Source: Cytophagales bacterium
GTDB lineage: Bacteria > Bacteroidota > Bacteroidia > Cytophagales > Thermoflexibacteraceae
NCBI GenBank assembly: GCA_013298985.1
Contig: JAAFJS010000033.1
Location: 1 to 35,855 of the forward strand
Direction: 5' to 3'
DNA length: 35,855 nucleotides
Positions 1,068 to 30,066 of this stretch are shown here, piece after piece. Under the pieces are notes generated by a model. That model saw only the letters and a program-made list of their open reading frames with translations. It had not been told where the DNA came from and searched no databases. Made by a program: the position numbers and the translations under genes. The first letter of the stretch is position 1; every line of letters begins with the position of its first letter.

Positions 1068-1188
1068 AGTTAAAATTAATTAGGACTTACGAAAAATTGG
1101 AATAACCTCTTTATCTTTATAAGCATAAAAGAATTTTATTCTCTTGTCTATGAGATAAGTAGTTCCATCCACTCGTAGTTTGTGCCTT
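1068..1188. other. Non-coding spacer with an IS-like end sequence
   Basis: AT-rich spacer after the epimerase. TAGGACTTACG at 1081-1091 matches the first 11 bases of the terminal inverted repeat of the 179-bp element at 22204-22382. No partner end is visible, so this may be a remnant or chance. Nothing coding is seen. Confidence 0.35.
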
Positions 1189-1336
1189 AAAGTCCGTAGG
1201 ACTTTTATGTTGGTAGAAATAGTTATCAAGATGCTCACAAACTCCGTTAGGAGTTTAATGTTATCCAACTCCTAACGGAGTTGCTGTATGTTTTGGCATT
1301 TATTTTCTACCAATATTTAACTCCTAACGAAGTTTT
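1189..1336. repeat. Four-hairpin element 1 (gene-less RAYT-type element)
   Basis: Four short hairpins. H1 is 1189-1205 (AAAGTCC, loop GTA). H2 is 1239-1256 (AAACTCC, loop GTTA). H3 is 1266-1283 (CAACTCC, loop TAAC). H4 is 1319-1334 (AACTCC with one mismatch, loop TAAC). The first two have the CCGTTAGG polarity and the last two the complementary CCTAACGG polarity. GTTGGTAGAAA lies just inside H1, and its complement-like TTTCTACCAATATT just inside H4, so the whole element is an imperfect dyad. It aligns end to end with 13591-13746 and shares its plan with the transposase element at 22437-23060. It lies between the convergent ends of the epimerase and the TonB receptor. Confidence 0.8.
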
Positions 1337-1422
1337 AAGACTTCATTTTGCAAGTTTTCAAAAATTAGATAAATCTTATTCCTTGAAAAAACTAACTACA
1401 AGCTGAAAACTACCTAAAAATA

Positions 1423-13189: not shown

Positions 13190-13590
13190 TAATCTCAGGT
13201 ACAAAAGTAAAAAATAAAGATGGAAATAAGAAATTTCTATCAAGGTAAACGCATAATATTTTTATAATAATTTGATTTTCAATTAGTTAAGAAATTAATT
13301 TCTATTTTTTAATTAACTAAATTATTAGACAAATGCTTAAATAACTACAATTTACAAGCCTGTTAGGGCTTAAATATTGACAGTTCGCCGTTGCGATAGC
13401 ATAAAATATTCTCTCATCTCTGCAAGCCTCGTAAGACTCGCACTAAAAGGTTTATAAAGTTCCACGCCAATTCCATTACAACTTAAAAGGCGTAGTCAAA
13501 GATAAGCCCTCGCTTTAGCAGGTGGAGCTATACAAATCCATAAAGAATGAAGATAATCATTCATAAGTATATTAACAATTCATCGTTCAT
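13190..13590. other. Non-coding stretch, no gene seen
   Basis: AT-rich at first. A degenerate hairpin AAGCCT-GTTA-GGGCTT is at 13356-13371 with the same loop as the RAYT-type hairpins. GTTCGCCGTTGCGAT (13382-13396) has near matches at 7007-7021 and, inverted, at 15519-15533. The more GC-rich segment 13430-13540 has stops in all frames; it reads like a decayed dispersed sequence, but I cannot assign it. Confidence 0.4.
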
Positions 13591-13746
13591 AAACTCCTTT
13601 AGGAGTTTGACGTTGGTAAAAATAGTAATTTTGATATTCGTAAACTCCGTTAGAAGTTTCATAATCAACTATTTATACAACTCCTAACGGAGTAGAAATA
13701 CATTTGTATCGTTTTTCCACTACCAACATTTAACACCTACGGCGTT
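13591..13746. repeat. Four-hairpin element 2 (gene-less RAYT-type element)
   Basis: Second copy of the four-hairpin plan. H1 is 13591-13608 (AAACTCCT/AGGAGTTT), H2 is 13642-13659 (AAACTCC, loop GTTA, one mismatch), H3 is 13680-13693 (ACTCC, loop TAAC) and H4 is 13732-13746 (AACACC/GGCGTT, loop TAC). CGTTGGTAAAAATAG follows H1, and CACTACCAACATT precedes H4. It aligns along its whole length with 1189-1336, including the linkers (for example AATAGT after the box), so the two are diverged copies of one sequence and not unrelated hairpins. Confidence 0.78.
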
Positions 13747-13868
13747 TTTTAATCTGCAAAATGTCTATCCATAACCATGTTTTTATACTTTTATGCGTTT
13801 GACCTAAATTTCTATGTTTAATTTGAAACATTATCATAAAAAAGGGTGGTGTTAAAGATGTAATGCTA

Positions 13869-22382: not shown

Positions 22383-22436
22383 TTTTATATACTATGTTGA
22401 TAAGCAATAAGTTGTAACGATTGTTTATTGTAAAAA

Positions 22437-23060
22437 AATGCCGTTAGGCATTCAATATTTGTAGAAAAGAAGGGAATCCTCCGCCCAAAAAAGCCCCATA
22501 GGGGCGAAACCTCATTCTATGGACTTGAAGATGTACCTTTCATCATATTCTATTTCAAATATTTTCAAAAATGCTTTGTATTCTTCTATGAAGGTGTGCG
22601 TTTTATGGTGTCCTTCCTGATTTTCAATATATTTCACTACGCTGTCTATTTGGCTTTTGGAATAAGAAAATGCACCATAGCCCGATTGCCACTCAAATTT
22701 TCCTTGTACTAATTTGCTTTCATCTATCCATTTGGAGGAACTGCCCTTGATGTCTTGCAATAAATTGGAAATGGATTGGGTAGGATGTAAGCCAATAAAG
22801 ATGTGAACATGGTCGGGCATTCCGTTGATTGCGATTAGTTTATGTTCCTGATTGGTTACAATGCCTGTGATATATTTGTACAAATCTGCTTTCCAATAAG
22901 GCTGAATCAGGCTTTGGCGATTTTGTACTGCAAACACCGTTTGAATATAGGTTTGCGTGAATGTATTTGCCATAGAATTAGCATTTTATGTTTCGCCCCT
23001 ATGGGGCTTATGTTTTTGATGTGTTTATAGTGCTACAAATATCATATCCCTAACGGGATA
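22437..23060 (-). mobile_element. RAYT-type transposase element with paired end hairpins
   Basis: A 624-bp unit. The left end is H1 22437-22452 (AATGCC, loop GTTA, GGCATT), then CAATATTTGTAGAAAA, then H2 22493-22505 (GCCCC, ATA, GGGGC). The right end is H3 22995-23007 (GCCCC, TAT, GGGGC), then TGCTACAAATAT, then H4 23045-23060 (TATCCC, loop TAAC, GGGATA). The ends are mirror images around the transposase gene. Distances H1-H2 (56 bp) and H3-H4 (50 bp) match those in the three gene-less elements of this window. I infer that this is the autonomous member of the family. Confidence 0.82.
22512..22973 (-). CDS. REP-associated tyrosine transposase (HUH, IS200/IS605 TnpA-like)
   Basis: A 153-residue single-domain Y1 HUH endonuclease. 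The HUH motif is H55-V-H57 in MPDHVHIFIG, which binds the metal ion. The catalytic tyrosine is Y115 in VVKYIENQEGHHK, which would bond covalently to the 5' end of a cut single strand. There is no TnpB or IscB partner. Length and the stand-alone layout fit RAYTs, which act on nearby REP hairpins; IS200-type TnpA is the alternative and cannot be excluded. The gene starts with ATG at 22973. Its stop is 7 bp from hairpin H2 and its start 22 bp from H3, so the hairpins closely frame the gene. Confidence 0.92.
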   Translation of the reverse strand: MANTFTQTYIQTVFAVQNRQSLIQPYWKADLYKYITGIVTNQEHKLIAINGMPDHVHIFIGLHPTQSISNLLQDIKGSSSKWIDESKLVQGKFEWQSGYGAFSYSKSQIDSVVKYIENQEGHHKTHTFIEEYKAFLKIFEIEYDERYIFKSIE

Positions 23061-23141
23061 AAAAATCATTTTTAGGCTATAAAAAACACCATCCATAGAG
23101 GTTGAAATTGGATAAGAGAATAAAATTAAAAAACTCACACC

Positions 23142-23180
23142 AAAAAAAATACCATTGGACATTCAATATTTGTAGAAAAA
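23142..23180. repeat. Decayed RAYT-type left-end sequence
   Basis: This segment aligns with 22434-22466 (H1 plus the TTTGTAGAAAA box) with four differences, all transitions inside the hairpin; CATTCAATATTTGTAGAAAA is identical. The hairpin can no longer pair well. It may be the end of an older copy. Confidence 0.65.
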
Positions 23181-23183
23181 ACA

Positions 23184-23216
23184 ACACCTGTCAGGTCTTC
23201 GAGACCTGACAGGTGT
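23184..23216 (-). terminator. Rho-independent terminator of the aconitase gene, also a dispersed-repeat-like hairpin
   Basis: ACACCTGTCAGGTCT pairs perfectly over 15 bp around TCG. On the minus strand it is followed by TTGTTTTTTC. It lies 20 bp past the aconitase stop. Palindromes of the ACCTGTCAGGT type are, in my experience, scattered through Bacteroidota genomes, so it may be both repeat and terminator. Confidence 0.72.
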
Positions 23217-28760: not shown

Positions 28761-28808
28761 ATTAATTTGTAACAATTACATCAACAAAAATAAAAGTTCT
28801 ATTGTTTA

Positions 28809-29081
28809 GTGCCGTTAGGCACGACAGCTTTGTAGAAAATTTAGGATAAATTACATTTTAATAAGTCCCGTTAGGGACGACACAAATATTTGGTAGTTAA
28901 TTAGTTACGTCCCTAACGGGACTTTTATCCATTGTTTTTTATTGATTTCTACAAAGCGTACGTCCCTAACGGGACTTTTATCCATTGTTTTTTATTGATT
29001 TCTACAAAGCGTACGTCCCTAACGGGACTTTTATCCATTGTTTTTTATTGATTTCTACAAAGCGTACGTCCCTAACGGGAC
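28809..29081. repeat. Four-hairpin element 3, expanded to six hairpins
   Basis: Reverse hairpins are at 28809-28822 (GTGCC, loop GTTA, GGCAC) and 28865-28878 (GTCCC, loop GTTA, GGGAC). Forward hairpins (GTCCC, loop TAAC, GGGAC) are at 28909, 28962, 29015 and 29068. TTTGTAGAAAA follows the first, and GATTTCTACAAAG precedes the last three. The rev-rev-fwd-fwd plan and the spacing of 53-56 bp match elements 1 and 2 and the ends of the transposase element. Together with the terminator at 28704-28760 it fills the 448-bp gap before the convergent GT14 gene. Confidence 0.82.
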
Positions 29082-29082
29082 T
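28908..29082. repeat. 53-bp perfect tandem repeat (3.3 units)
   Basis: Units start at 28908, 28961 and 29014, with a 16-base partial unit at 29067. Each unit holds the GTCCC-TAAC-GGGAC hairpin, a linker with ATTGTTTTTTATTG, and the TTTCTACAAAG box. No difference was seen between the units, so the expansion is recent or kept even by recombination. Confidence 0.92.
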
Positions 29083-29115
29083 GTGATAATACAAAATACA
29101 TTTAAATTTGTTGAA

Positions 29116-30066
29116 CTACTTATTTGCCAATAACATCTCATCTATTTTATTGAGAACGGTCATGTCGTTTTCCGCCTCAAATTTGCGGGCGATAAATTTC
29201 TCTGATGCCATCATTTGCGGTATATCTGCCAAGCCAACATTGTTTGGGTGGTCAGATTTTGTAGCTCCCCAGTTAATATAATGCAAAGATTGATTGACAA
29301 TATTTTCCTTGATGGCTTTTTCTTCTGCATTGAGCAAAAGTGATTGGAAAAACATCTCATCAGGAATGTGGGTGTATTTGAAGTAATTATAAAAACGCGT
29401 ATCTTTTGCTAACTCACCTAATATGTACTTCACAGCCTCCATAGACAAAGTACACCACTGAGAGCCATAATAAGGAGTTTTAGAAGGAATAAATTTTCTT
29501 GGGTATGGTTTTGCACTGGGCAAAAAACCAGTTAAACGTTTTATTAACAACCACTTGCCCTGTTTGGCATGAGCAGAGCGCACTTTCAAAAAAGAAAAAA
29601 GCGGAAAAGCAAGGTGCAGCTTGCGCGTGAAAATGAGATGGTAATAACTCAATCGGTCTAAGCCTCCATGCGCGATGGAAGGCGTAGGCATGGAAAAATA
29701 TTCTATAAAAGTCTTTTGTGGGTGTTGGAAGAGAAAGGCTTGGTATAGCTCGGCAGTTTTGATGGGGTAGTCCTGCCCACTCATCAGGGTAACGTGCGAA
29801 ATAGTTTCGCCCAAAGCCGCAATTTCTTTCAGCCCATTAAGTGTAGCTCTTATCATATTGAAGCCTCCCCAAACAATATTTTTTCTCTCCTTCACAAAAT
29901 GCAAACGAGCCGAAGCTATCTCAGAAAGTGCCTGTTCAAAAGGCTCTTGTGCTGCTTTCTGGTCAATATGTATAAAAAACAAAGCATCTTTTGTATCCAA
30001 TCGACTCACTAAACGAGCCAACTGCTTTGGGTTTTTGTGGGCAAGTATCAAGTAGGCAAATTTCAT
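29116..30066 (-). CDS. Core-2/I-branching-type glycosyltransferase (GT14 family)
   Basis: A 316-residue cytoplasmic or membrane-associated sugar transferase of the family named after beta-1,6-N-acetylglucosaminyltransferases. It starts with the family-typical KFAYLILAHKNPKQLARLVSRL and FFIHIDQK (nucleotide-sugar domain). VWGGFNMIRATLNGLKE (65-81), LMSGQDYPIK (94-103), YYGSQWCTLSMEAVKYIL (about 200-217) and the acidic HIPDEMFFQSLLLN (about 234-247), which holds the presumed catalytic Glu, follow. There is no membrane helix. Bacterial members act in exopolysaccharide or O-antigen assembly; donor and acceptor cannot be told. It stands alone between the lipoprotein-like gene and the thrA gene, with no other sugar genes adjacent. 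Confidence 0.9.
   Translation of the reverse strand: MKFAYLILAHKNPKQLARLVSRLDTKDALFFIHIDQKAAQEPFEQALSEIASARLHFVKERKNIVWGGFNMIRATLNGLKEIAALGETISHVTLMSGQDYPIKTAELYQAFLFQHPQKTFIEYFSMPTPSIAHGGLDRLSYYHLIFTRKLHLAFPLFSFLKVRSAHAKQGKWLLIKRLTGFLPSAKPYPRKFIPSKTPYYGSQWCTLSMEAVKYILGELAKDTRFYNYFKYTHIPDEMFFQSLLLNAEEKAIKENIVNQSLHYINWGATKSDHPNNVGLADIPQMMASEKFIARKFEAENDMTVLNKIDEMLLANK

Follow-up and report, generated by a model that had tools for sequence, protein, structure and literature searches.

Gene-less copies of a short mobile element with double-hairpin ends in a Cytophagales bacterium and their probable link to a subclass 1.2 Y1 transposase

Members of the IS200/IS605 family (IS608 and ISDra2; TnpA_Y1 subclass 1.1) encode a Y1 HUH transposase with a single catalytic tyrosine, have subterminal hairpins at both ends, and leave no target duplication. 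Repetitive extragenic palindromic (REP) sequences, including the REPINs and REPtrons associated with RAYT transposases, are intergenic palindromes that carry a GTAG tag, form inverted pairs, and flank the transposase gene. TIRtrons are Y1 genes (TIRYTs, mostly class 2.1, with GGGGWSAS motifs) between long inverted repeats that are also dispersed (Di Nocera et al. 2013, PMC3733652), and miniature inverted-repeat transposable elements (MITEs), like palindrome-associated elements derived from IS200/IS605, are short, gene-less, intergenic sequences that keep both ends of the full element. TnpA_Y1 subclass 1.2, with the signature Y---Q--HH, DH[IV]H, and WQ, occurs in low copy number, mainly in Bacteroidetes, and was reported to be without REPs and generally without IS200-type ends (Quentin et al. 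2018, PMC6006769). Among open PMC papers, this was the only one found to name the subclass, and the motifs of the element described here were not found in them in the present sense. That element lies in a 35.9-kb stretch of DNA from a Cytophagales bacterium (contig JAAFJS010000033.1; hereafter the window), where hairpin clusters of 150 bp are copies, carrying no gene, of a mobile element each end of which is a hairpin pair around a short GTAG-containing signal. The mover is very probably an IS200-like Y1 transposase of the class that is listed in the literature as lacking such ends.

The system shares with IS200/IS605 the features given above, its transposase scoring above the IS200 cut-off, but each of its ends has two hairpins that enclose a GTAG box, the ends are mutually inverted copies, the protein has a Y---Q--HH motif and a longer C-terminal part, and few gene copies stand beside many gene-less ones; the left and right ends of IS608 are unlike, and hairpin number and symmetry differ as well. 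The protein motifs and low copy number are those of subclass 1.2, although, in contrast to the published description, the genes here lie between double-hairpin ends and coexist with gene-less derivatives. Compared with REP/RAYT systems, which it resembles in all the traits listed, the transposase is of another class, the GTAG stands away from the hairpin foot, and there are two hairpins per end, four per element, and separate terminal sequences. The enzyme subclass and the hairpin-box-hairpin ends distinguish it from TIRtrons, and it differs from MITEs in lacking a target-site duplication and in having ends that are folding structures and not plain terminal repeats. Overall, the system is a new variant within the IS200/REP superfamily, and the data do not support a RAYT as its driver.

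A scan of the whole window for GC-rich stems (4 bp or longer) closed by short loops gave 15 hairpins, all of them inside four intergenic clusters (e1 to e4) and none solitary. The features are as follows, with hairpins numbered H1 to H4 and types A to D denoting terminus subfamilies.

1157..1356, no strand: e1, gene-less; left terminus AAGTAGTTCC at 1157, right terminal part to about 1356.
e1 left half: H1 1189-1205, box GTTGGTAGAAA 1209-1219, H2 1239-1256.
e1 right half: H3 1266-1283, inverted box TTTCTACCAA 1304-1313, H4 1319-1334.
13565..13767: e2, gene-less and chimaeric; left terminus of type A/B (AAGTATATTAAC, 13565), right terminus of type C to 13767.
e2 left half: H1 13591-13608, box 13612-13622, H2 13642-13659.
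e2 right half: H3 13680-13693, inverted box 13718-13728, H4 13732-13749.
22434..23063: e3, transposase-bearing, with the gene between H2 and H3.
e3 left end: H1 22437-22452, box TTTGTAGAAA 22458-22467, H2 22493-22505.
22512..22973, minus strand: IS200-like Y1 transposase of 153 aa with DHVH, WQ, and YIENQEGHH, the motifs of TnpA_Y1 subclass 1.2.
e3 right end: H3 22995-23007, inverted box GCTACAAATA 23032-23041, H4 23045-23060.
23150..23179, plus strand: degenerate third half-unit downstream of e3, TACCATTGGACATTCAATATTTGTAGAAAA.
28774..29121: e4, gene-less, type A; left terminus at 28774, right terminus TTGTTGAACTACTT to 29121.
e4 left part: H1 28809-28822, box 28829-28838, H2 28865-28878, H3 28909-28922.
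e4 tandem units (three) of inverted box and hairpin: boxes at 28946, 28999, and 29052; hairpins 28962-28975, 29015-29028, and 29068-29081.

The ten half-units of the window (left halves together with right halves reverse-complemented) align end to end as H1, a TTKGTAGAAA box, and H2. The GTAG lies between the two hairpins, 8-9 nt past H1 and some 25-33 nt ahead of H2. Folded as single-stranded DNA, the three gene-less elements are more stable than dinucleotide shuffles (z = -7.6, -2.7, and -10). The initial annotation had proposed a rev-rev-fwd-fwd plan with paired hairpins 50-56 bp apart; the plan holds, with centre distances of 49-56 bp for H1-H2 and H3-H4 across the four elements, except in e4, whose right half is three tandem repeats at a 53-bp pitch and whose order is therefore rev-rev-fwd-fwd-fwd-fwd. 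The hairpins lie where that annotation had placed them, and the elements are longer than it had supposed, reaching the limits listed above. The e4 box, TTTGTAG, is of the same type as that of the window transposase, whereas e1 and e2 carry TTGGTAG, the box of another cognate group. The right terminus of e4 touches the stop codon of an open reading frame (ORF; 29116-30066).

Tandem amplification of half-units at a pitch of about 51-53 bp, as in the window at 28946-29081, was also seen at L021:879-1205, L055:1501-1674, L099, G005:C6:86106-86438, and L040, and these loci include a 295-bp stretch, itself spanning a whole element, that is triplicated in tandem. The third half-unit that follows e3 is complete in the corresponding copy of a congener (L132), and in the window it is interrupted by a ACCTGTCAGGT palindrome (23184-23216).

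The genome, a draft assembly of 6.06 Mb in 383 contigs from which copies can only be counted as a minimum, shows how the elements are built, how their stems covary, and how many there are and in what order, and also that their ends are sharp, that they lie between genes, and that the target is not duplicated. A half-unit covariance model (hairpin, TTKGTAG box, hairpin) found at least 146 half-units at E below 0.1, and a plain pattern of H1 and box matched 134 times, compared with 22 when the pattern was reversed as a control. Neighbouring half-units were arranged '+-' in 56 cases, '-+' in 6, '--' in 7, and '++' in 2 (sign test on 56 against 6, P of about 3e-11); since the model imposes no order, this excess is an independent test of the rev-rev-fwd-fwd plan. 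Beyond an H1-and-box match, the next hairpin stood at 47-58 bp in 72/99 cases and in 1/96 at control positions 600 bp away, and the middle gaps cluster at 16, 20, and 24 bp according to subfamily. Paired bases occupied 97.3% of stem cells, with a covariation score of 0.683 compared with 0.281 for shuffled and 0.04-0.13 for slid partners, in an alignment that was fitted to the model, a bias that the slid control shares only in part. Of the 56 paired elements, 55 lie clear of ORFs of 120 aa or more, while such an ORF is overlapped by 814 of 961 size-matched random windows (85%); the exception, L099, meets an ORF, itself unverified, at the edge of a copy that bears a transposase. Single hairpins at random spacing and without order, which would have refuted the initial reading, were not what the genome showed. 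The covariance scan proposed with that reading did reveal a large intergenic family with few transposase-bearing copies, although in units of about 205-270 bp and not of about 150 bp.

That length follows from the termini. Similarity among copies runs 17-36 bp past the outer hairpins and then stops abruptly, so that full elements mostly measure about 205-270 bp, and the terminal sequences are T^AAGTAnnTCAAC in subfamilies A and B, TAGACATCTTGCAG in C, and TACATTCGTGC in D. No target-site duplication was found in 33 elements with both termini located. Two copies, L093 and L106, are 98.8% identical and have unrelated flanks. In subfamily D, all five elements with both ends known sit centrally in a hairpin: the joined flanks of L106 and L079 form perfect stems of 12 and 13 bp, and those of L047, L093, and L113 form hairpins of the REP type whose loops resemble GTTA/TAAC. 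Among random junctions, 1.6% of draws reach a score of 6 and 0.3% reach 8, and the weaker cases (L047, L093, and L113) are unconvincing on their own. In subfamilies A, B, and C, the joined flanks were no better than chance (scores of 1-4), with no palindromic target preference. The hairpin-loop insertions suggest that target choice is tied to folded single-stranded DNA.

The window transposase scores 99 bits against Pfam Y1_Tnp (cut-off, 23) and 72 bits against the NCBIfam IS200 model (cut-off, 55), which is above threshold, and 37 bits against the RAYT model (cut-off, 80), which is below; it has Y---Q--HH where the RAYT type has Y---NP. Of the initial view of MITE-like, RAYT-driven derivatives, the non-autonomous part is supported and the RAYT part is not. 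The nearest named relatives of the window transposase point to Bacteroidota, the nearest solved structures are the ISDra2 and ISHp608 TnpA proteins (PDB), and the subclass 1.2 motifs are invariant or nearly so among 19 aligned relatives. Only three genes of its clade occur in the genome: the window gene and C328, both intact, and C5, which has a stop codon. Two further subclass 1.2 genes are present with different hairpin families, along with three class-2 Y1 genes with Y---NP motifs.

The association of transposase and element across Bacteroidota, and the way in which box type tracks the transposase tree, are likewise shown here. Among 59 relatives, elements occur in 10 of the 13 genomes with a clade transposase and in 6 of the 46 without (Fisher P = 2.5e-5), and half-units bracket the gene in most clade members. 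As the strongest test, we took 80 loci in GTDB genomes for which the only criterion of choice was similarity of the protein (Flavobacterium, Fulvivirga, Draconibacterium, Mucilaginibacter, Algoriphagus, Dyadobacter, some Ignavibacteria, Verrucomicrobia, and others). Half-units within 120 bp of the gene were oriented 36 '+' to 3 '-' upstream and 38 '-' to 8 '+' downstream; at least one lay beside the gene in 52/80 loci, with both sides occupied in 20. Independently of the half-unit model, 45/79 loci had an inverted repeat between the gene flanks that no shuffle reached. In these loci, therefore, the reported absence of end structures from subclass 1.2, which is a published property and does not define the protein class, does not hold. 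Box classes, defined by the third and fourth box positions (TG, GG, or TA), were identical at both ends in 27/33 loci and required 10 changes on the transposase tree compared with 23.0 in shuffles (0 of 200 shuffles did as well), on a tree that is poorly resolved at depth and to whose box clustering near-copies add. This match makes a recognition code directly testable.

With a probability of roughly 0.8, we assign e1, e2, and e4 to a family of short mobile elements with inverted ends, as copies that carry no gene and that we propose are mobilized in trans by a subclass 1.2 enzyme. The data support regarding them as non-autonomous, MITE-like derivatives of the transposase-bearing element, because an intergenic, genome-wide family accompanies only two intact transposase copies and a broken one, because plan and box are shared, and because near-identical copies with unrelated flanks (L093 and L106) and hairpin-loop insertions are found. 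Binding, cleavage, a single-stranded route, and mobilization in trans are proposed by analogy with the IS200/IS605 family, which is marked by a single-stranded circular intermediate and strand-specific cleavage. Full copies (e.g., 22434-23063) carry only the transposase between their ends. When a strand becomes single stranded, for example at a replication fork, both ends would fold; the transposase would recognize hairpin and box, cut near the termini, excise the single strand, and paste it elsewhere without target duplication. Gene-less copies, which retain both ends, would be moved in trans. With each end an inverted copy of the other, both strands should be able to fold and act as substrate, in contrast to IS608.

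These elements likely supply the DNA substrate of a single-strand transposase class that has been described as orphan and end-less, and they explain a large repeat family in Bacteroidota; with an explicit model, they can be found genome-wide. A tentative extension, to which we would give slightly less than even odds, is that subclass 1.2 is a separate transposition system with symmetric four-hairpin ends, a box that coevolves with the enzyme, use of either strand, gene-less spread in Bacteroidota, and at least one lineage that targets hairpin loops.

Several observations weigh against the main reading. The TTGGTAG group, cognate to e1 and e2, is represented in the genome only by the broken gene, so that their enzyme may be C5 or a gene no longer present. 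Genomes G002, G003, and G005 hold many elements (about 30 halves in G002) and no clade transposase, and these may be relics or may be moved by something else; the G002 halves indicate that elements can persist after their enzyme is gone. For e2-e4, an empty site with both flanks was not readable in the congeners G001 and G002, which have about 75-84% DNA identity and are not syntenic at these loci, because the flanking genes lie on different contigs. Finally, e3 matches its copy in G001 (81-82% identity) only from H1 inward and lacks the terminal segments of 17-36 bp that gene-less copies have, which leaves the exact cut site of the transposase unfixed.

That the copies are scattered relics, once mobile and now drifting by ordinary mutation and duplication, is unlikely but has evidence in its favor: most copies are 75-93% alike, the genome's TTGGTAG-type transposase has a stop codon, and some arrays (L040, e4, and L021) are plain tandem duplications. 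However, drift does not sit well with the near-identity of L093 and L106 at unrelated sites, with two 250-bp copies in G041 that are 97% identical and have sharp ends, or with a window transposase that is intact and retains all catalytic motifs. If a RAYT (TnpA_REP) moved these sequences as ordinary REP/REPIN elements, that would account for the GTAG-containing tag, the inverted pairs of palindromes, the many intergenic copies, and the class-2 Y1 genes with Y---NP, but we consider this very improbable, as the flanked genes are IS200-like, the GTAG is not at a hairpin foot, and the ends flank the Y---Q--HH clade in the 80 protein-picked loci. Structured regulatory RNAs or bidirectional terminators selected for expression would fit intergenic hairpins with strong covariation but can scarcely be reconciled with flanking genes in all orientations (30 tandem, 10 convergent, and 8 divergent), sharp termini common to copies in unrelated contexts, insertion into other hairpins, like ends that bracket transposase genes across phyla, the lack of any Rfam match at the elements (at each family's gathering score), and the lack of conserved syntenic positions of individual elements, which would have favored such a role and were not seen.

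Integron attC sites, suggested by GTTAGGC in some stems, were rejected without a separate test, the elements being dispersed singly and bracketing a transposase. The two G041 copies (L170 and L171) have halves in '-+' order and CCGCAC/GTGCGG ends, and a clade transposase was not found in that genome.

Other insertions were seen within the elements. At L088, L055, and L118, a different element (TTGACATTCAAGAATAAACCGTTC ...) occupies element hairpins at their loop (CCTAA^TTAGG), again a case of hairpin-loop targeting. Many right halves (L056, L085, L086, L090, L096, L105, and L114) are interrupted at the box (CTAC^CAA) by another palindrome, CGCAACGGCGAACCGT, which is also found mid-gap in subfamily C elements (e.g., L045). 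Micro-palindromes of 11-14 nt of the form xxxT-GGA-Axxx (CAATGGAATTG, CAGTGGAACTG, GAATGGAATTC, and GACTGGAAGTC) recur inside the hairpin arms of several unrelated element families (L042:322, L054:1569, L063:1568, L093:1567, L092:1661, L087:256, window 13462-13495, and others), and GGA is the most overrepresented loop among 4-bp mini-hairpins in the studied loci.

Outside the window clade, the subclass 1.2 gene C112 (L119:1220-1410) has a double-hairpin repeat of its own on its flanks, ACGCCTTAAAAGGCGTAGTTAAAGATAACCCCTCGCTTTAGCGGGG, which recurs in the window just ahead of e2 (13462-13522), and C239 (L118) has yet another flanking repeat, ACCGTTTTAACGGT. Significant inverted hairpin repeats are found on both flanks of subclass 1.2 genes at L150, L151, L154, L155, L157, L158, L163, and L165, which suggests that the subclass as a whole may have structured ends. 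The Flavo-1 RNA (RF01705) adjoins transposase-bearing copies in two Flavobacterium genomes (L201:2178-2281 and L173:2109-2168) as a separate structure, the elements themselves being unmatched in Rfam, and the apical loop of the L201 Flavo-1 contains CTACCAAAGTGCC, which resembles element sequence.
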